The notes under the pieces are model-generated. The model was not told where the DNA came from. It searched no databases and saw only the letters and a program-made list of their open reading frames with translations. Positions 6,731 through 16,013 of a stretch of DNA of 64,000 bases are shown here, piece after piece. The DNA is from Iamia majanohamensis (lineage in GTDB: Bacteria > Actinomycetota > Acidimicrobiia > Acidimicrobiales > Iamiaceae). How positions within the stretch are numbered: position 1 is the stretch's first letter; each line of letters begins with the position of its first letter. The stretch spans positions 682,001-746,000 of the forward strand of contig NZ_CP116942.1 in NCBI RefSeq assembly GCF_028532485.1. The letters are read 5' to 3'. A program made the position numbers and the translations under genes.

Positions 6731-6752
6731 CGCGCCCGACCCCGGATCGCTG

Positions 6753-7175
6753 ATGCCCCGTTCCCCCCGCACCCGGTCGCGCCGGGCCCGTCGGGCGCGC
6801 GCCGCCCGCATCGAGGCCCTCGCCGCCGGCCGCGAGGTCGCCGTGCCGTGCCGCGCCCGGCGCACCACCCCCCGCGGGTGGGGTGCCTGGGTGGACGGCA
6901 CCCTGCGCCTGCCGGGCGACCACGACGGCGGTGAGGCCGCCTTCCTCGTCGACGACCCCAGCGATGTGGCCCTCGTGACCCGGCAGGGTGAGGCACCGGT
7001 CGCCCTCGAGCCGCCCCTCGAGGTCGAGGTCCGCCCCGTCCGGTACAAGGCGGAGTCGTTCTACGGGGGCGACGCCGGGATCCTGGTCGTCACCACGGCG
7101 CGCCGCACCCTCGAGGTGGCCCTGCACGGCGACGAGGTCGAGCCCGTCGCCCGCCGCCTGGCCGACCGCGGCTGA
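6753..7175 (+). CDS. Hypothetical protein, faintly DUF2550-like
   Basis: A 140-aa protein with a strongly basic N terminus (residues 1-35 rich in Arg) and a beta-rich body. The phrase [12 protein letters not shown], then [10 protein letters not shown] and a closing [16 protein letters not shown], is reminiscent of actinobacterial DUF2550 proteins. It lacks the N-terminal membrane anchor normally seen in those. This similarity is from memory and weak. It sits alone between the etfA terminator hairpin and another inverted repeat, so it is probably transcribed by itself. Function is unknown. Confidence 0.6.
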
Positions 7176-7227
7176 GCGGGGCGGGGGCGGGGGAGCCGCC
7201 TCCCACCCCCGCCCGGCGGACGAGGCC

Positions 7228-7270
7228 CCAGCCGGCCGGCTCCCTCCCCCGGGTCCGCCCGGCCGGCTGG
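7228..7270 (+). terminator. Inverted repeat after the 140-aa gene
   Basis: Perfect 10-bp arms CCAGCCGGCC (7228-7237) and GGCCGGCTGG (7261-7270) enclose 23 nt. It sits between the 140-aa gene and the AfsR-like gene and may end transcription. Confidence 0.45.
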
Positions 7271-7324
7271 CGCGTCGTCCGCGGTCCCCGCCGGCTCGGA
7301 TCATGGGCCGCGCCGGTCACGGTA

Positions 7325-7343
7325 CGGTTAGGCGTCGGTAAAC
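7325..7343 (+). promoter_or_regulatory. Candidate SARP-type direct repeat, regulator gene
   Basis: CGGTTA at 7325 and CGGTAAA at 7336 are the same-strand repeats, 11 bp apart (one helical turn), the spacing used by SARP-type regulators. The same arrangement occurs on the minus strand at 15183 and 15172 upstream of the DyP/P450 operon. Here it lies 16 nt before the probable start, so binding could be autoregulatory. Confidence 0.5.
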
Positions 7344-7346
7344 GAC

Positions 7347-7352
7347 AGGGAG
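7347..7352 (+). promoter_or_regulatory. Ribosome binding site favouring a CTG start
   Basis: AGGGAG is 6 nt before CTG 7359. No ATG, GTG or TTG lies in this frame between the TAG at 7329 and GTG 7413, so this site decides the choice. Confidence 0.5.
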
Positions 7353-7358
7353 TGCCTG

Positions 7359-10300
7359 CTGACCACGAGCCGTGCCACCGAGGGGGAGGTCACCTTCCGC
7401 GTCCTGGGACCGGTGTCGGTCCTGGTCGGCGAGGCCGAGGTCGACCTGGGGGGTGCCCAGCGTCGGGCCGTCCTGGCCCAGCTGGCCCTCACCCCGGCGC
7501 GGGTGGTCACCTCCCCGACCCTGGTGGCGGGCCTCTGGGGCGACGACCCGCCCGACACGGCGAGGAAGGCGGTCCAGGTCCAGGTCTCCCGGCTGCGCGC
7601 CGGGCTGCCCCACGGGACCATCGCCACCCACGGCGACGGCTACCTGCTCGACGTCGACCCCCTCCGGACCGACCTCGGGCGCTTCGAGGACCTGGTGGCC
7701 CGGGCCGAGGCCCGGCGTCGGGACGGGGAGGTGGAGGCCGCCGCGGCGCTCCTGCGGTCCGCCCTCGGCCTCTGGCGGGGCCCGGCCCTGGCCGACGTGG
7801 CCGAGGCGCCCTTCGCCGTCGCCGCCTCGGCCCGCCTGGAGGGCGCCCGCTGGCACGCCCTCACCAGCCGCATCGGTGACGACCTCGCCCTGGGCCGCCA
7901 CGCCGCGGTGGTCCCGGAGCTGGAGGCGCTCGTCCACGAGCACCCGCTCCGGGAGGAGCTCTGGGCCCAGCTCATGGTCGCCCTGTACCGCACGGGCCGC
8001 CAGGCCGACGCCCTGCGCGCCTTCCACCGGGCGCGCACCGTGCTGGCCGACGAGCTGGGGCTGGCACCGGGGCCCGCGCTCTGCGACCTCGAGGCCGCGA
8101 TCCTGGCCCACGACCTGCCGGAGGTCGGGGCGCCGGGCCTCGGCGCAGGGGTGGTGCCGACCGGTGGCCCCGTCGACCTCCGTCCCCCCGACACGCTGGT
8201 GGGTCGCGACGCCGACCTCGCCACCCTGCTCGGCGCCCTCGACGCGGCCGGGAGGGGCGTCGGGCCCGGGCTGGTGGCCGTGCGCGGCGAGGAGGGCCTC
8301 GGGAAGTCGTCGCTGATCGCCACGTTCGCGGCCCGGGCCCGAGGGCGCGCGCTCGTCGTCGCCGGACGGTGCCGGGAGCACGTGGCGGTGCCGTTCGGGC
8401 CCTGGGTCGAGGTCCTCGACCAGCTCGGCGCCACGGAGGCGCTGGACGCCCTGGCCGGCCGCCCCGACGACGACACCTCGGCCGAGTGGCGGCGCACCCG
8501 CTTCTTCACCGCCGTCGTCGACTGCCTCCGCGCCGCAGGGCGCGACGTGCCGCTGGTCGTCGTCCTCGACGACCTCCACTGGTCCGACGACGGCACGGTC
8601 GCCCTGCTCCTCCACGCCCTCGACGAGCTGGCCCGGGACCCGGTCCTGGTGGTCGGGGCCTGGCGCGACCGCGAGGTCGGCGTCGGCCACCCGGTCGTGC
8701 GGGCCCTCCAGAGCGCGGCGCGCCGGGGCGCCCCCAGCCTCGAGCTGGGCCCGCTGACCCGGGCCGACATCGCCGACCTGGTCGCCGCCCTCCCCGGCCT
8801 CGACGACCCCGCCGACGGGTCCCTCGACGTGGCCGGCCACGTCCTCGACGTCACCAGCGGGGTCCCGCTGTTCGTGGCCGACGTGCTGGCCCACATGGAT
8901 CCGGGCGCGCTGGAGCGCGGCGGGGAGGACCTGGCGCCCCAGCTGCCGGAGACGGCCCGGACCATCGTCGACCGGCGCCTGAGCGAGGCCGGGCCCTCGG
9001 CCCTGCCCGTGGCCCACGTGGCCGCGGTGCTCTCCGACCCGATCGCCCCCGACGTGGTCGCCGACCTCCTGCCCGACGCCGGGCTGGCCGACGTGCTCCA
9101 CGCCCTCGACCGCCTGACGGCGGCCGGCCTCCTCCAGGACGGCCACGCCGGCCCCGTCTTCGCCCACGGCGCCTTCCGGACCGCGGTCGTCGACGACATC
9201 CCCTCGGGACGGCGCCAGGTGCTCCACGCCGCCGTCTTCCGGCGGCTGGGGGAGGCCGGGACCCCGCCGGCGGTGCTCGCCCACCACGCCGAGAGCGCCG
9301 GCCGCCTGGTGGCCGACCACGAGGCCGCCGCGGCCCTGCGACGGGCGGGCGCCGACGCGGCCGAGCGGGGCGCGTTCGTCGACGCCGCCGCGTTCTACGG
9401 GCGGGCCGTCGACCGGACGCCCGCCGGCGAGCGGAGCGCGGCCCAGGTGGCCCACGCCGACGCCCTGTGGCGGGCCGGGGACCTGGCCACGGCCAAGGCC
9501 GTCGCCGTCGCCGTGGCCGACGCCGCCGCCCGTGAGCCCTCCGCGGCCGCCGAGCACACCTGGACCGACGCCGTGGTCCTCCACGGCACCATCGGCGCGG
9601 GCTACGGCCCCGACGACGACTCGGTCCGCCTCGTGGAGGACGCCCTGGCCGGCGTGCGCGACCCCGTCGCCCGGGCCCGGCTCCACGTGGCCCGGGCCTA
9701 CCACCACGCCGCCTGGGGCTCGCCGGCGTCGGTCGCCCACGATGCCCTCCGCCGGGCCCAGGACGCCCTCCCCGACCCGTGCCCCCCCGACCTGTCCGCC
9801 GACCTGGGCTTCGCCGAGGGCCTGGCCCTGCTGGACTCGCCCGACCTCGACGTCCGGCGGGCCCACGCCGAGGACCTGATCGACCGGGGCCGCTCCCTCG
9901 ACCAGTGGCGGACGGTGGGCCGGGGCCTTCGCCTGCGGGGCATGGTGCAGCTCTCGGCGGGGGAGGTCGACGGGCTCGACGCCACCGTGGACGCCCTCAT
10001 CGACGTGGCCGAGCGGACCGGGTCCTGGATGTACGAGTCCGACGCCTGGCGGTGGCGGGCCGCCCGGGCCCTGGCGGGCCACGACCTCGCCGGTCTCGAG
10101 GCCGCCATCGGGGAGCTGGAGCGGCTGGCGGCCAGCCCCCTGGCGGGCTGGGTGATGGTGGGCACCCAGAAGGTGCTGCTCCAGCGGGCGCGGGGTGACC
10201 TCGAGGGCACGCTCGCCATGGTCGACGGCCTGCGGGCCTCGCTCCCCGACACCTCGCCCTGGCAGACCGATCGTCGACTGGCCGACCTGTACCGCCTCGA

Positions 10301-10622
10301 CCTGCTGGCGGCCATGGGCCGGACCGACGACGTGGCCGCCGAGCTCCGCGCCCTCCAACCCCACGAGGAGCTCGACCTCTGCTCCTGCCGGCGCTACCCC
10401 GCCGAGCTGGCCCTCACCGCCCGCGCCGTCGCCGTGGCCGGTCGACCCGACGAGGCCGCCGCCCTGGCCCCCCGTCTGGCGCCGTTCGCCGGCCAGCACG
10501 TCGTGCTGGGGTGGGGCGAGGGGATCATCGACACCTTCGACGCCTGCCACTCGGCCCTCCGCGCCCGCGCCGCGCCCGGTGCCGTCCCGGCCCCGGACGT
10601 GCAGGGGGAGCGGGCGACGTGA
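7359..10622 (+). CDS. AfsR/SARP-like regulator with BTAD and AAA ATPase domains
   Basis: A large (about 1087 aa) multidomain regulator. Residues about 1-100 form an OmpR-type winged helix typical of SARPs (GGAQRRAVLAQLALTP, LWGDDPPDTARKAVQVQVSRLR). A bacterial transcriptional activation domain follows (about 110-255). Next is an AAA-type ATPase with Walker A EEGLGKSSLI and Walker B VVVLDDLHWSD. The second half is helical-repeat sensor-like. The first GTG (7413) would delete the conserved FRVLGP strand of the DNA-binding domain. An AGGGAG site at 7347-7352 is 6 nt before an in-frame CTG at 7359, so a CTG start is proposed. The stop overlaps the next gene (GTGA). Confidence 0.85.
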   Translation: MTTSRATEGEVTFRVLGPVSVLVGEAEVDLGGAQRRAVLAQLALTPARVVTSPTLVAGLWGDDPPDTARKAVQVQVSRLRAGLPHGTIATHGDGYLLDVDPLRTDLGRFEDLVARAEARRRDGEVEAAAALLRSALGLWRGPALADVAEAPFAVAASARLEGARWHALTSRIGDDLALGRHAAVVPELEALVHEHPLREELWAQLMVALYRTGRQADALRAFHRARTVLADELGLAPGPALCDLEAAILAHDLPEVGAPGLGAGVVPTGGPVDLRPPDTLVGRDADLATLLGALDAAGRGVGPGLVAVRGEEGLGKSSLIATFAARARGRALVVAGRCREHVAVPFGPWVEVLDQLGATEALDALAGRPDDDTSAEWRRTRFFTAVVDCLRAAGRDVPLVVVLDDLHWSDDGTVALLLHALDELARDPVLVVGAWRDREVGVGHPVVRALQSAARRGAPSLELGPLTRADIADLVAALPGLDDPADGSLDVAGHVLDVTSGVPLFVADVLAHMDPGALERGGEDLAPQLPETARTIVDRRLSEAGPSALPVAHVAAVLSDPIAPDVVADLLPDAGLADVLHALDRLTAAGLLQDGHAGPVFAHGAFRTAVVDDIPSGRRQVLHAAVFRRLGEAGTPPAVLAHHAESAGRLVADHEAAAALRRAGADAAERGAFVDAAAFYGRAVDRTPAGERSAAQVAHADALWRAGDLATAKAVAVAVADAAAREPSAAAEHTWTDAVVLHGTIGAGYGPDDDSVRLVEDALAGVRDPVARARLHVARAYHHAAWGSPASVAHDALRRAQDALPDPCPPDLSADLGFAEGLALLDSPDLDVRRAHAEDLIDRGRSLDQWRTVGRGLRLRGMVQLSAGEVDGLDATVDALIDVAERTGSWMYESDAWRWRAARALAGHDLAGLEAAIGELERLAASPLAGWVMVGTQKVLLQRARGDLEGTLAMVDGLRASLPDTSPWQTDRRLADLYRLDLLAAMGRTDDVAAELRALQPHEELDLCSCRRYPAELALTARAVAVAGRPDEAAALAPRLAPFAGQHVVLGWGEGIIDTFDACHSALRARAAPGAVPAPDVQGERAT

Positions 10623-11545
10623 CGGTGCTGGCGCCCCCCGTCGACCCCACCCCTGCGGCGCGCCTCGACGCCCTCGTGGGCGTGCCCCTCACCCATCGCC
10701 ACCTGGACCGCTGGTGGGGCCGCCAGCACGTCGTGGAGGCGGGCCCGCCCGACGCCCCGCCCCTGGTGCTGCTGCACGGGTGGCCCCAGCACTGGTTCGC
10801 CTGGCGCCACGTCATCAGGGCCCTGGCCCACGAGGCCCGGGTCGTGGTCCCCGACACCCGGGCCTTCGGGTGGAGCCGCTGCCACCTCGACCCGCGGGCC
10901 CGGCGGGCCGTCACCACCCCGAGCCTGGCGGCCGACGTGGTCGACCTCCTCGACGACCTCGGGCTCGCCTCGGCCCACCTCGCCGGCCACGACTGGGGTG
11001 GGTGGTTCGCGTTCCACGTCGCGCTCCACCACCCGGCCCGCGTCCGCTCGCTCACCGCCGCTGCGATCATGCCGCCGTGGCTGTCGGCCGCCGGTGTCGT
11101 GCGACGGGCGGCGGGCCTCGGCTACCTGCTGCCCATGGGCCTGCTCGGGGACCGGGCCGCGCGCGACCCCCGCATCGTGTCCTGGCTGCTGCGGATCAGC
11201 ACGGGTGACGACGACGTGTGGGCGACCGACGACGGTCGCACCGCTCGGGCCCACTACACCGACCGCCTCCGCACGCCCGAGGCGCAGGAGGTGACCCGCC
11301 TGCTGTACCGACGGATGGTGGCCGTCGAGCTGCGACAGGCGTGCGGCCCCCGCCCCGACCGGCTGGCGATGCCGGCCCGCCTGGTGCTGGGCGGGCGGGA
11401 GCCCATCGCCCACCGGGACGTCTTCTGGTCGCGCACCCACCCGGGCGAGGTCGAGCTCGTCGACGCCCCCGGCGCCGGCCACTGGGTGCTCGACGAGGAC
11501 CCCGGAGCGGTGGTGGGGGCGCTGCAGGCCGCGCTGCGCGGCTAG
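10619..11545 (+). CDS. Alpha/beta hydrolase, epoxide hydrolase/dehalogenase type
   Basis: A 308-aa alpha/beta hydrolase. The HGWPQ motif supplies the oxyanion hole. The nucleophile elbow is GHDWGG, so the nucleophile is Asp rather than Ser, as in epoxide hydrolases and haloalkane dehalogenases. The C-terminal GAGHWVLDEDP carries the catalytic His. There is no signal peptide. GTG 10619 overlaps the stop of the AfsR-like regulator, so the enzyme is co-translated with it. It converges on the P450 gene, and both stop codons sit in one CTAG. An epoxide product of the neighbouring P450 or peroxidase would be a sensible substrate, but this is inference. Confidence 0.87.
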   Translation: MTVLAPPVDPTPAARLDALVGVPLTHRHLDRWWGRQHVVEAGPPDAPPLVLLHGWPQHWFAWRHVIRALAHEARVVVPDTRAFGWSRCHLDPRARRAVTTPSLAADVVDLLDDLGLASAHLAGHDWGGWFAFHVALHHPARVRSLTAAAIMPPWLSAAGVVRRAAGLGYLLPMGLLGDRAARDPRIVSWLLRISTGDDDVWATDDGRTARAHYTDRLRTPEAQEVTRLLYRRMVAVELRQACGPRPDRLAMPARLVLGGREPIAHRDVFWSRTHPGEVELVDAPGAGHWVLDEDPGAVVGALQAALRG

Positions 11546-12687
11546 CGGTCCAGGCGCACCACGAGGTGGCCCGGGAAGGGCCAGCGGCCCACGCCCGACG
11601 GCGCCGCCCCGGTGAGGGGACGGCCGCGCCGGCCCGGACGCCGCCGGGGACGACCGTCGGCCAGGGCCCGGAGGACGATCCCGGCCACCACCGTGACCTC
11701 GTGCTGGCCCATGCAGCGGTGGGGCCCGGAGCCGAAGGCGAGGTTGGCGGCGCTGGTCGGCGTGCCGGTGCCCTCGGCCCCGGCCGCGGCCCGGGTGGCG
11801 GCGAGGACGGGCCCGGCGGGGAGGCGGTGGTGCGCCCCTCCGTCACCCACCTCCACCGGGGCCCCGCACTGGCGGGGCAGGCCGGGCAGCGGGGCGCGCC
11901 GCGCGAGGGTCCGGTCGAAGAGCCAGGCCGCCTCGGTCGCCGACCCGGGACCGGCGAGCTGGATCGGGTCGTCGAGCAGCCCGTCGACGACGAGGGCCAG
12001 GCTCCAGGAGCCGAGGGCCAGGGGGCCGACGGTGAGGCCGACCAGGTCGGCGACGGCGGCGTCCACGTCGCCGCCGGACTCGGTGAGCAGGCTGGCCGCG
12101 AGCGTGCCCGGCGCCGCGTCCCGCACCGCCTCGTCCAGCGCGGGCCGGGCCCGGTCGACGGCCCGGAGGGCGGCGTCGCGCCCGCGCTGGTCGGCGCGGG
12201 CCCGTGGCGTCTCGGGCTCGAGGGCCGTGGCCAGCAGGACGAGGCGCCCGATCCGCGCCAGCGTCGGACCCCACCCGGGCAGTCCGAACCACCCCTCCAC
12301 CCACGCCGCGAGGGCGGGGTCGACCAGACCGGTGACCACGTCGAGGCGGGGCCCGGCGGCGAGGACGGCGGCGTCGGCGACCTCGGCGGCGGCGTCCTCG
12401 CCCCGCCGGCGGGCACCCGCCGAGCGATCGAGGGCCCGGGCGATGCGGGCCCGGGCGGCGGCGTGGGCCGACCCGTCGCAGGCCAACGGGAAGTCGCCCA
12501 GGCCGAGGAGGCGGCTCGCGGGGCCGTAGGTCACCAGGACCTCGGGGTGGGCGAGGAGCGCCTCGACGGTCGACCGTCGGGTGAGGACCTGGCGGAAGCC
12601 GGTGCGGCACTCGACCAGCGCGGCGGCGGGCGCGGGCAGCACGCCGCGCCACCCCAGGACGGCGAGGAGGCGGTCGGTCCGGGTCAC
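11542..12687 (-). CDS. Divergent cytochrome P450
   Basis: A 381-aa P450-like heme protein. The heme ligand loop FGSGPHRCMGQHEVTV is clear, with its Cys and downstream helix. Two other signatures are not found in their usual form. The I-helix equivalent reads VGPLALGSWSL and lacks the AGxxT acid-alcohol pair, and no normal ExxR is seen around EAAWLFDRTLARR. The enzyme may therefore use peroxide or an organic hydroperoxide rather than O2 plus a reductase, like other P450s that lost this Thr. It is the third gene of an operon with a DyP-type peroxidase, overlapping its stop by 4 bp (GTGA). No ferredoxin or reductase lies nearby. Confidence 0.82.
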   Translation of the reverse strand: MTRTDRLLAVLGWRGVLPAPAAALVECRTGFRQVLTRRSTVEALLAHPEVLVTYGPASRLLGLGDFPLACDGSAHAAARARIARALDRSAGARRRGEDAAAEVADAAVLAAGPRLDVVTGLVDPALAAWVEGWFGLPGWGPTLARIGRLVLLATALEPETPRARADQRGRDAALRAVDRARPALDEAVRDAAPGTLAASLLTESGGDVDAAVADLVGLTVGPLALGSWSLALVVDGLLDDPIQLAGPGSATEAAWLFDRTLARRAPLPGLPRQCGAPVEVGDGGAHHRLPAGPVLAATRAAAGAEGTGTPTSAANLAFGSGPHRCMGQHEVTVVAGIVLRALADGRPRRRPGRRGRPLTGAAPSGVGRWPFPGHLVVRLDR

Positions 12688-14006
12688 GGCCGGGGCCCCC
12701 GCGCCGCCATGGTCCGCAGCGCGGTGCGGCTGGGGAGCAGGACGTACTCCCCGCCCCGGGTGGTGACGAAGCTCGGCAGGGAGGGGGTGCGGACCCGGCC
12801 GCCGTCGGCGCCGGTGATGCTGGCCGGACGGGGCCCGCCGCCGACCGGGCACTGGCCGGTGAGCGGGTCGGTCTCGGCGCCCAGGCCGAAGCGGTTGCCG
12901 TCCTGGAGCCAGTGCGACTGGACGAGCTCGAACTGGCGCCGCAGGTCCGCGCACAGGGCGAGGAACAGGAGCCCCTCGGTGCCGTCGGCCTCGTCGGCGT
13001 AGGGGATGCCCCGCCGGAAGAGCTGGTGGCGGGGGACGATGCGGTCCGCGTGCTCGACGTCGTCGCGGGGGTGGGAGCGGCGGATGTGGCTCGACGGTGG
13101 CACCGCCCGGCCCTGGGGTCCGCCGTCGCGGTACAGGAAGTCGTTGGCGGGCTCCTCGCCGGGCCGCTGCCCGAGCACGGTCCCGTCGCGCCGGCGCCCC
13201 ACGATGCGGTCCGCGACGTCGTCGGCGTCGAGGCCCTCGACCCCCTCGGCCCACGACGCGCACGCGCCCCGGAAGCCCTCGACGTCCTGCTCGAGTCGAC
13301 GGACCACCAGGTAGCTGCCGTCGCGCTCGAGGTGGGCGGCGTCGGGGTGCCCGGCCACCGCCCCGCTCTCGTCGACGTGGCCGAGGAGCGCCTCGCCGGC
13401 CCGCACCGCGCGCCACCGCAGGGCCTCGCCGTCCCAGACGCCGGCGCCCGGTCGGACGGGGCGGCCCGAGCCCTCGATGGTCGGCGAGCTGATGCCGTCG
13501 CGGAAGCCGAAGGGCTCGACGCCGCCGGGACGGCTCGTGCCGGTCCAGCGCGCCGCGGAGGTCGACAGGTGGTCGACCGAGCCGGCCAGGCCGCCCCAGT
13601 CCGGCGCGTCGGCGGCGGGGACCCCCGGGCGGGGACCGACGGCGAGGACCACGGCGTGGACCGGGGGGTCGCCCGGGGCGAAGGGCGGGACCCACGTCTC
13701 CGGGGCGCTGGGGCCGACGTCGCCGTTGCGGGTGGCGGCCAGCCGCATCCCGTCGAGGAAGGCGGCGGGCAGCGCCGCCCGCGCCCGGCGGCCGACGTCG
13801 AGCAGGTCGATGCCGGCACCGGTGACGCCGAGGTTCACCGACGGTCGGTCCGAACGGGCCTGGGCCGCCGGGGTCACGGTGGCGGCCGCGGTGCCCAGGA
13901 GCCGCACCAGGTCCTGCCGGGTGGGGCAGTGGAGGAAGGCGAGGTCGAGGCGCGCCGCGGCGTGGGGGTGGAGCACGAGGCTCTGGACCTCGGTGGGGTC
14001 GATCAC
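12684..14006 (-). CDS. DyP-type heme peroxidase
   Basis: A 440-aa dye-decolorizing-type peroxidase. The hallmark GFRDGIS lies at residues 167-173, with the catalytic Asp (GxxDG). The heme-ligand region SSHIRRSHPRDD is in the C-terminal half. A second DyP-like sequence GLLFLALCADLRRQFELVQ is followed by the C-terminal GGEYVLLPS. No Tat signal is visible, so it may act in the cytoplasm. The GTG start overlaps the preceding gene's stop (GTGA), and its own stop overlaps the P450 start. The 3-gene order suggests a joint pathway. Substrate is not evident. Confidence 0.88.
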   Translation of the reverse strand: MIDPTEVQSLVLHPHAAARLDLAFLHCPTRQDLVRLLGTAAATVTPAAQARSDRPSVNLGVTGAGIDLLDVGRRARAALPAAFLDGMRLAATRNGDVGPSAPETWVPPFAPGDPPVHAVVLAVGPRPGVPAADAPDWGGLAGSVDHLSTSAARWTGTSRPGGVEPFGFRDGISSPTIEGSGRPVRPGAGVWDGEALRWRAVRAGEALLGHVDESGAVAGHPDAAHLERDGSYLVVRRLEQDVEGFRGACASWAEGVEGLDADDVADRIVGRRRDGTVLGQRPGEEPANDFLYRDGGPQGRAVPPSSHIRRSHPRDDVEHADRIVPRHQLFRRGIPYADEADGTEGLLFLALCADLRRQFELVQSHWLQDGNRFGLGAETDPLTGQCPVGGGPRPASITGADGGRVRTPSLPSFVTTRGGEYVLLPSRTALRTMAARGPRP

Positions 14007-15112
14007 CGGCGCGGCTCCCGGACCGGCCAGGTGGCGTGGCGGCGGGGCCGGGCGGCCAGGTCGCGCACGGCGGCCACGGTGCTCCCGGCGTAGCCGCAGT
14101 AGGCCATGTGGTGGCGGGAGGCGGCGGGCCGGGCGGCGAGGAGGTGGGCGGTGAGGTCGGCGTCGTCCCACCACCCCTCGGAGGGGTCCGGGGCGCCCTC
14201 GGTGCACTCGACCAGCCGGCGCAGCGTCGTCGACCCGCCGGGTGCGGTCGGGCCCAGGTGCCGGTCGGCGGCGACCGCGGCGGCCAGCACCTCCTCCGCG
14301 GTGCCGTCGTGGGTGAGGGTGACGAGCAGCCAGGACCCGGTGGGGCGGTCGAGCACGACCACCCGACCGAAGTGGACGAGCCCGGTGCGCACGAGGACCG
14401 GCTCACCCCCGTCGGGCGGGTCCTCGAGGGCGCGGGCGGCGCGCACGGCGGCCGCGGCCCGACCCTCCACGAGGGGGAGCAGCAGGGTCGTCCAGGAGGG
14501 GTGGTCGAGCCCGAGGCCGTGGCGCCGGGCCGTGGACCGGGCCCGACGGGGGTCGCGCGCCATGAGCTCCTGGAACACGTCGCCGCTGGTGAGCGACGGG
14601 TAGGCCGAGACGTAGTGGTCGGGCTCGTGGTCGGCGGCCTTGGCGTAGGCCTTGAACAGGCGCAGGTCGTCGAGGCCCGGCCACCCCGACCCCCAGGCGG
14701 TGATGGTGCGGAGGGGCCAGCCCTGGACGGCGCCGAACACCTCCAGGTAGTCGTCCCAGTCGCCGTCGAAGCTGGACTCGAAGAGCAGCTGCCAGCGCTC
14801 GTCGGGGGACCGGCGCCAGGGCCACCGCCCCGGCGGGTGGAACGGCGGCAGCAGGGACCACCGGATGGCCGAGACGAACCGGAGGCTGTCGAGGGTCCCC
14901 ACCGCGAAGCCCCGGAGGCGTCGACGGCGCAGGACCCAGAGCCAGGCGGCCAGGCCGGTGCGGCCGCCGAGGCGGAGCGGCAGCACCACGGTGAGGGCCT
15001 GGGCCCGCCCGTCGTGGCGACCGCCGTCGGGCCGGCGGGCGGGCGTCGGCGCGCCGGCAGGGTGGGAGGGGCGCGGGCCCGGGTCGACCTCCGGGTGCGC
15101 GCTCCCTCCCAC
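14003..15112 (-). CDS. Uncharacterised protein, first gene of the DyP/P450 operon
   Basis: Up to 369 aa; not assigned to a named family. The middle has WQLLFESSFDGDWDDYLEVF and VSAYPSLTSGDVFQEL, phrases that I recall from N-terminal domains of larger DyP- or lipid-peroxidase-associated proteins. That would make this a separated partner domain of the next gene's peroxidase. The C-terminal part has LVHFGRVVVLDRPTGSWLLVTLTHDGT, which looks like a ferredoxin-like alpha/beta fold. No membrane span or signal peptide is clear. The start is uncertain. GTG 15112 is the longest, but the first 40 residues are low-complexity, and translation may begin near residue 42. It overlaps the peroxidase gene by 4 bp. 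Confidence 0.65.
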   Translation of the reverse strand: MGGSAHPEVDPGPRPSHPAGAPTPARRPDGGRHDGRAQALTVVLPLRLGGRTGLAAWLWVLRRRRLRGFAVGTLDSLRFVSAIRWSLLPPFHPPGRWPWRRSPDERWQLLFESSFDGDWDDYLEVFGAVQGWPLRTITAWGSGWPGLDDLRLFKAYAKAADHEPDHYVSAYPSLTSGDVFQELMARDPRRARSTARRHGLGLDHPSWTTLLLPLVEGRAAAAVRAARALEDPPDGGEPVLVRTGLVHFGRVVVLDRPTGSWLLVTLTHDGTAEEVLAAAVAADRHLGPTAPGGSTTLRRLVECTEGAPDPSEGWWDDADLTAHLLAARPAASRHHMAYCGYAGSTVAAVRDLAARPRRHATWPVREPRR

Positions 15113-15163
15113 CCTGCCATGGTGGACGCCTGGCGCCCCCCCTCGCCGCCCCGCTGACCAGGG

Positions 15164-15183
15164 CGTTTACCGCAGCGCTACCG
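15164..15183 (-). promoter_or_regulatory. Candidate SARP-type direct repeat, DyP/P450 operon
   Basis: On the minus strand CGGTAG (from 15183) and CGGTAAACG (from 15172) repeat with an 11-bp period. The repeat CGGTAAACG is identical to the one upstream of the AfsR-like gene, with the same spacing to its partner. It lies about 50 bp before the operon's first GTG. Confidence 0.5.
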
Positions 15184-15374
15184 GTGGGCAACCGGCCCCG
15201 GCGACGCTGCACCCGGTGCCGGGGCCCCGGGTGCGCGGGCGGCCCGACGGCGGCCTCTCGTCCCCCACGATGTGAGGGGCCGGGATCCCGGCGCCGCCTG
15301 ATCGGAGCACCGTCCCCGCCATCCCCCCTTGGCGGGGGCGGTGCCCCGTCGGGACCGGCGCGGCCGCCGCGCCC

Positions 15375-16013
15375 TCAGCCCGGGATCTCGACCAGCAGGC
15401 CGCGGATGACCGCCCCGACCAGGTCGGTGACGAGCAGGTCGCGGTCGGGCCACGGGAGGCCGGGCTTGGCCACCAGCAGCGAGGCCAGGCCGTGCACGGT
15501 GGACCAGAAGAGGATGCCGAGGTGCAGCGGCCCGCGCTCGGCCAGGTCCGGTCGCACCCGCCCGGTGGCGATGAGCTCCTCGGTCGTGCGCAGCAGGAGG
15601 CCGAACGACGTCTCGTCGCTCACCATCTCCTCTGCGTACTCCTGGGCCGACAGGTCGTAGCGGGCCATGAACATGATCCGGTAGTGCTCGGGGTGGTCGA
15701 TGGCGTAGTGCACGTACGCCCGCCCCAGGGAGGCCATGCGCGCCACGACGTCCTCGTCGGTCGCGGAGGCGTCGAGGGCGGCGGCGAAGCGGTCGAAGCT
15801 CCGGTGGCAGACCTCCAGCAGGAGCCGGTCCTTGTCGGCGAAGTGCCGGTAGATCGACGGGGGCGTCACGCCCACCCGCTGGGCGACGGCGCGGATCGAG
15901 ACCGCGTCCTCCGACGCGGTCTCCACCAGCAGGTCCGAGGCCGCAGCCAGGATCTCGTCCCGCAGCCGGTCGCCCTCGCCCCGGCGGGCGCGGGTCCGGG
16001 CCGACGGGGTCAC
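15375..16013 (-). CDS. TetR/AcrR family transcriptional regulator
   Basis: A 212-aa TetR repressor. The N-terminal HTH is EILAAASDLLVETASEDAVSIRAVAQRVGVTPPSIYRHFADKDRL (residues about 17-62, split here only for description). The C-terminal ligand domain is of the WHG type, with the phrase GRAYVHYAIDHPEHYRIMF. The gene lies 19 bp downstream of the MMPL transporter and in the same direction, so it is the second gene of that operon. It likely represses the pair through the palindrome at 18326-18336, in a feedback loop common to TetR-exporter units. The inducer is unknown. Confidence 0.92.
   Translation of the reverse strand: MTPSARTRARRGEGDRLRDEILAAASDLLVETASEDAVSIRAVAQRVGVTPPSIYRHFADKDRLLLEVCHRSFDRFAAALDASATDEDVVARMASLGRAYVHYAIDHPEHYRIMFMARYDLSAQEYAEEMVSDETSFGLLLRTTEELIATGRVRPDLAERGPLHLGILFWSTVHGLASLLVAKPGLPWPDRDLLVTDLVGAVIRGLLVEIPG

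Follow-up and report, generated by a model that had tools for sequence, protein, structure and literature searches.

The window analyzed here, a stretch of 64,000 nucleotides from the Iamia majanohamensis genome (contig NZ_CP116942.1), contains a block of about 8 kb in which two transcription units face each other, one opening with a large regulator of the SARP (Streptomyces antibiotic regulatory protein) family and the other encoding an unassigned protein (gene A), a DyP-type peroxidase and a divergent P450-like protein. An array of three short direct repeats, termed a triplet below, lies upstream of each unit. The elements of the locus are as follows.

7314-7344, + strand: triplet 1, CGGTCA-N5-CGGTTA-N5-CGGTAAACG, upstream of the regulator gene; read directly from the sequence
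15164-15194, − strand: triplet 2, CGGTTG-N5-CGGTAG-N5-CGGTAAACG, preceding the operon of gene A, DyP and P450; read directly from the sequence
7359-10622, + strand: large SARP regulator, 1087 residues, with Trans_reg_C, BTAD and AAA_16 domains (Pfam and NCBIfam)
10619-11545, + strand: alpha/beta hydrolase, its start overlapping the regulator stop (GTGA)
11542-12687, − strand: divergent P450-like protein, 381 residues, with the motif FGSGPHRCMG, its start overlapping the DyP stop (GTGA)
12684-14006, − strand: DyP-type peroxidase, 440 residues, its start overlapping the gene A stop (GTGA)
14003-14989, − strand: gene A, about 328 residues, start codon uncertain
7176-15374, no strand: block that comprises the two units with their triplets, probably an insertion when compared with two congeners

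Sequence, position and rarity of the triplets

A preliminary description of this DNA had placed a direct repeat with an 11-bp period before the regulator and before the P450 operon. The repeats are present at both places, at the coordinates and on the strands that it gave, and the period is common to the two sites, but each site holds three in-register copies and not two. On the + strand the copies are CGGTCA at 7314, CGGTTA at 7325 and CGGTAAACG at 7336-7344; on the − strand they are CGGTTG at 15194, CGGTAG at 15183 and CGGTAAACG at 15172-15164. The CGGT core is found in six of six copies, every step is 11 bp, and each triplet spans 31 bp. Base 4 of the repeat is T in all six copies, base 5 is C, T, A, T, A and A in turn, base 6 is A or G (A in four of the six), and base 7 is variable. 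Each triplet stands in sense orientation upstream of one of the two convergent units, so that the two point toward each other, one about 140 bp and the other about 180 bp inside the ends of the block. The kinship with SARP-type direct repeats that had been proposed is borne out by the format of both sites, which is that typical of SARP operators (repeats of about 7 bp at a pitch of 11 or 22 bp, in at least two copies) and here comprises three copies at 11 bp.

In the genome of 4,576,919 bases, the two-copy pattern CGGTWR-N5-CGGTAAACG is matched exactly twice, both times at this locus. When up to two mismatches are allowed it is found at five places in the genome, as against two for a reversed-pattern control, and with up to three mismatches there are 3 occurrences within the window where 2.0 are expected, which is the chance level. 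Because the loose two-copy pattern is unremarkable in the window, the signal resides in the exact, triplicated form. The triplet CGGT-N7-CGGT-N7-CGGTAAACG also has two exact matches in the genome, both at this locus, and none in 23 other genomes of the family (one of which has a match at one mismatch) or in 396 other genomes of the order; the reversed control gave 0 in every row. At up to two mismatches it occurs at 11 places in the genome (4 for the control), only two of which are free of mismatches; of the nine further places, four are inside long coding-like frames and five are ambiguous or unassigned. The preliminary description had noticed no further copy in the window, and GTAAAC does occur there only twice, once per triplet site. 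It had also proposed a genome-wide search, in which a random frequency would speak against it: the exact form proves to be rare and confined to the locus, although the loose two-copy form at up to three mismatches is at chance in the window.

The pair also stands out when no core sequence is presupposed. In a scan for any 4-mer in three copies at 11-bp pitch, common to two places, such a pair came up in 4 of the 24 regions, the present one ranking first with a score of 15.1 and the next region having 11.7. The regions were the 20 kb around the locus, three more pieces of the window that overlap in part, one of them 14 kb long, and 20 further stretches, 7 around the genome's other eight BTAD genes and 13 around SARP-like genes of relatives. 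When the 20 kb were dinucleotide-shuffled 4000 times, the observed score was reached twice, in a test that presupposes three copies at 11 bp.

It should be noted that exact triplets were found in 40 stretches across 84,980 species genomes (a scan that may leave out the I. majanohamensis genome itself), in many phyla and in one case as a tandem array. The five proteins of the block gave nothing better than E 0.045 by tblastn against these stretches, which are at most 8 kb long, with some sites close to the edge. In one of them (L097), on closer inspection, the site does not lie in an evident promoter. These scattered occurrences, together with the chance-level count of the loose pattern in the window, are what might be cited for a chance resemblance. 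However, they correspond to less than one per 2000 genomes, yet here two triplets occur 8 kb apart, at promoter positions and in sense orientation; with the shuffle result and the empty score for the other genomes of the order also against it, chance is a most improbable explanation.

Because exact triplets are confined, within the order genomes examined, to this locus, are so seldom equaled by shuffling and give the top score of the 24 regions, and because they combine the SARP-operator format and sense orientation with a regulator that partly keeps the DNA contacts of AfsR (see below), all within what looks like a single insertion, both are read here as predicted operators of the block's own SARP-AAA regulator, which would control itself and the oxidoreductase operon. 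The probability of this reading is put at roughly 0.72.

The triplets might be bound, in place of the SARP, by a different regulator that recognizes 11-bp repeats, for example by an OmpR-class response regulator of PhoP type. In the SARP literature used here (PMC5930380, PMC3367932, PMC10972967, PMC7040171 and PMC10936776), a review describes a PhoP-bound region at afsS that overlaps the AfsR site. However, a regulator with many targets should leave many sites, and there are only two exact triplets in the genome, the places at one or two mismatches being, as noted, in coding-like frames or ambiguous. Both exact sites are, moreover, inside a SARP-encoding block that is absent from two congeners, and binding by a PhoP-type protein seems unlikely.

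The regulator and its promoter

The regulator has the arrangement that defines the SARP family, an N-terminal winged-helix domain of OmpR type (PF00486, 29.2 bits against a cut-off of 26.2) followed by a BTAD domain (PF03704, 161.7 bits against 22.1), and that of the large SARPs, in which a nucleotide-binding domain follows the SARP domain (AAA_16 at residues 280-432). Its relatives of solved structure at E 1e-5 or better are AfsR and EmbR only, and among the other genomes of the taxonomic family, the relative with the best E-value shares 41% identity over residues 10-728.

The start of the gene and its promoter elements are assigned as follows.

7323-7328, + strand: TACGGT inside triplet 1, the probable (predicted) −10 element for the regulator gene
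7347-7352, + strand: probable ribosome-binding site AGGGAG, predicted, preceding the likely CTG start at 7359

The reading frame is closed by a stop at 7329, after which neither ATG nor GTG nor TTG occurs before 7413. The CTG at 7359, after AGGGAG, is the likeliest start codon, because the conserved first strand of the protein begins before 7413, where none of the three standard codons is available. An open reading frame listing based on ATG, GTG and TTG puts the start too late, at 7413.

Between 7150 and 7420, the + strand has no TANNNT other than TACGGT at 7323. Among 23 upstream regions of regulators, its own among them, 13 have TANNNT at a distance of 12-70 bp upstream of the matched start and 10 lack it there, compared with 0 of 23 in a control interval further upstream and with a mean of 3.5 and a largest count of 11 after shuffling. 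A survey for repeats, likewise of 23 upstream regions with its own among them, searched for period 11 and a CGGYNA-type core, and covered homologues with an N-terminal match and a locus, apart from L051, whose genome (G133) is without a triplet at one mismatch or fewer. Since triplet 1 overlies the likely −10 element and the start, its position suggests autorepression by the regulator rather than classical activation.

The same overlap might instead indicate that the sequence common to the two sites is the core promoter of a special sigma factor, the 11-bp period being incidental. However, TACGGT is present in triplet 1 only, the same register of triplet 2 reading ACCGGT; −35 and −10 hexamers are not expected as three in-register copies, nor would only two exact sites be expected in a genome. 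A sigma-factor promoter is therefore considered very unlikely.

The recognition helix of the regulator, QVQVSRLR, was compared across 29 loci, which gave 27 rows with its own included (L012 and L014 gave none), and an identical helix is found in none of the 26 other SARP domains. An unmatched helix fits a private operator.

The oxidoreductase operon and the probably inserted block

Because the stop and start codons overlap between the regulator and hydrolase genes on the + strand and between gene A, DyP and P450-like genes on the − strand, the locus is inferred to consist of two transcription units, each co-transcribed. The units are convergent, tail to tail, and the CTAG at 11542-11545 is common to both ends. 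The DyP peroxidase is well defined, with a Pfam Dyp_perox_C match and peroxidase structures matched down to E 2.6e-31. The P450-like protein has no Pfam match up to E 1 and its PDB matches are weak (best E 0.02), and FGSGPHRCMG is taken to be a heme-loop-like motif; gene A matches nothing in Pfam or the PDB up to E 1. When the five proteins of the block were scanned with PADLOC, no match was obtained.

Between triplet 2 and the likely start of gene A is a leader of about 175 nt that contains one further element.

15056-15118, − strand: 14-bp inverted repeat without mismatches, its arms at 15056-15069 and 15105-15118

The fold of the leader has a z-score of −4.4, and 1 of 200 shuffles folds as well. 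No other genomic copy of the hairpin was found at E 0.001 among the 40 scored of 136 candidates; it is possibly an attenuator or an operator. There is no TANNNT on the − strand between 14950 and 15450, so that the operon is without a recognizable −10 element; this would fit an activator-dependent promoter, although it is an absence only and not a proof.

Gene A and DyP form a conserved uncharacterized pair, as judged from sequence neighborhoods: gene A homologues are close to a DyP gene in all eight stretches fetched (L061-L068), which come from 7 other genomes. At least 9 of 298 genomes of the order, this one included, have a gene A match (up to 7 candidates scored per genome), and none of 11 other family members sampled has one. 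The stretches represent 7 of the other 8 matching genomes; the remaining one (G137), with a short and weak match, was dropped. STAND-type ATPases, guanylate-cyclase-like AAA or AAA-TPR proteins, occur near the pair in L065 (12486-15902, − strand) and in L067 (4-2625 and 6286-9105, both − strand). In the remaining six stretches nothing matched the regulator at E 0.01. The P450-like protein is found in only this one of 24 family genomes; at least 14 of 397 order genomes, again including this one, have a match (up to 4 candidates scored per genome), and the other matches are weak, with best E values per genome from 9.4e-7 to 6.7e-4 and 25-44% identity. Across genome contigs, a search with DyP gave 71 pattern stretches, of which 0 proved to be relatives by tblastn.

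Block 7176-15374 is probably an insertion. The genes that flank it (6750-7175 and the TetR gene at 15375-16013) are adjacent in G185 and G269, the two congeners compared out of three (the third being G304), with spacings of about 120 and 20 bp as measured by the ends of the protein matches, and none of the five block proteins has a match between these flanks. Neighbors present on both sides keep their order in the two congeners. Further to the left, YdjM and GDPD have no match in the stretch of either congener and PAP2 has none in that of G269; other differences therefore exist nearby. It is also possible that the block was lost from the congeners instead of inserted.

The ends of Tn7 are arrays of recombinase-binding repeats, and the triplets, inverted relative to each other and near the ends of the block, could in principle be end sequences of this kind that lie beside the first genes by chance. 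A 13-bp exact inverted repeat, GGCCGCGCCGGTC, at 7306-7318 and 15353-15365, also near the block ends, would agree with this. However, that pair is itself near chance (p 0.03 in 300 shuffles), the flanks share no direct match longer than 11 bp, a length at the chance level (p 0.23), and no recombinase or transposase is called among the five genes. Inward orientation is in any case expected for promoters of convergent units, and the match with SARP operators is close; an origin as recombinase-binding ends is decidedly unlikely.

Predicted operation and comparison with known SARP systems

The computed results are the repeats and their rarity, the anatomy of the genes, the SARP domain and the finding that two congeners lack the block; binding, its cooperativity, the sign of regulation and the signal are extrapolated from them, as follows. 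Each CGGTNA-type repeat would take one SARP protomer, with neighboring protomers occupying consecutive major grooves along the same face of the helix, binding side by side and cooperatively as for AfsR and PimR. At triplet 2 the bound regulator would control the gene A-DyP-P450 operon; its likeliest action there would be to bring RNA polymerase to a promoter without a good −10 element. At triplet 1, which covers the likely −10 element and start of the regulator-hydrolase unit, it would limit its own synthesis, and the AAA (STAND-type) part may gate the regulator on some signal. A more far-reaching version, in which the block is a self-contained transferable regulon whose SARP-STAND sensor represses itself through triplet 1, on its own core promoter, and activates gene A-DyP-P450 through triplet 2, and in which gene A-DyP pairs are generally coupled to STAND ATPases of varied output (SARP in this block, guanylate-cyclase-like AAA or AAA-TPR in two other genomes), is doubtful.

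Several observations weigh against identification of the triplets as operators of this regulator. In classical SARP promoters the 3' repeat is about 8 bp upstream of the −10 element, a geometry that fails at the regulator promoter because triplet 1 covers the likely (predicted) −10; at the operon, where there is no TANNNT to measure from, the 8-bp rule gives no distance. A triplet is present upstream of none of the 22 other regulators surveyed, but this weighs little because none of the recognition helices compared is identical to the present one. No orthologous locus in which conservation might be compared was found in the relatives searched. Position 4 of the repeat is C in the PimR consensus but T in all six copies here, and Thr88 of AfsR is Val in the regulator. 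The interpretation in the preliminary description is thus partly supported: its observation of the repeats is confirmed, and of its proposal that the block is a single regulated unit, what holds is that triplets front both units of an insertion-like block with its own SARP; the classical geometry of SARP promoters fails at the regulator.

If the triplets are operators of the block's SARP, a SARP regulon with two sites can be read from sequence here, its regulator and operators paired within a single insertion of 8 kb. One regulated unit would join the DyP peroxidase, the divergent P450 and a protein of unassigned family, whose joint function would be testable by induction of one gene, and the locus would be a natural test of whether a SARP sited on a −10 element represses.

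Among known systems, operators of the DnrI and ActII-ORF4 type resemble the triplets in having three heptameric repeats at some targets. Their heptamer differs, being of TCGAG type, and the proteins are small SARPs without the ATPase part.

SARP operators in general are described in the review as heptameric direct repeats with 4-bp spacers, several of them in three copies. The triplets share the heptameric repeats, 4-bp spacers, 11-bp pitch and CGG start with the sites of the SARP-LAL regulators PimR, SanG and PolR, and the footprint of PimR on its main operator, TGGCAAGaaagCGGCAGGtgttCGGCAAG, appears closest to them among the operators compared. That operator also has three copies (heptamer CGGCAAG), the A at position 6 of the heptamer is matched in four of the six repeats here, and PimR is likewise a large SARP with an ATP-binding domain. 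Binding of PimR needs at least two heptamers, and removal of one of the three left pimaricin undetected. The PimR main site is 58 and 93 nt upstream of two start points, whereas triplet 1 lies over the likely −10 and start of its own regulator gene. The target operon here also differs from those of PimR, SanG and PolR in opening with an unassigned gene and not with a pathway regulator.

The regulator shares with AfsR of Streptomyces coelicolor an architecture of SARP DNA-binding, BTAD and ATPase parts, and the afs box shares the 11-bp repeats. However, the regulator scores 182 bits against a cut-off of 1430 with the AfsR equivalog model NF053617, and by this measure is other than an AfsR equivalog; no TPR family is recognized in it by Pfam at E 0.001. 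The AfsR operator has the sequence CGTT(T/C)ATCGNN twice, compared with three repeats per site here, and exact sites of the present kind are only two in number, both local. In the AfsR complex, two protomers are side by side on two 11-bp repeats, with base contacts by Arg92 and Thr88, the latter being described as highly conserved among Streptomyces SARPs (PMC10936776). By alignment, the AfsR contact residues Gln48, Trp74, Pro79, Ser91, Arg92 and Arg94 are kept in the regulator, and six are changed (S46G, S80D, Q81T, R87Q, T88V and K95A). When CGTT of the AfsR repeat is aligned with CGGT, which is an assumption, the contacts of Thr88 are opposite the variable base 5, and the presence of Val88 may relate to the variation of that base; this is suggestive only, since base 7 also varies and base 6 is A or G. 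If the assignment of the operators is correct, the locus would provide a natural test of the effect of position 88 of the SARP helix on specificity at repeat position 5. A search of the literature, largely outside subscription journals, gave no related report of a SARP with CGGTAA repeats. The overall design of the system is familiar, but the block and its predicted site look new.

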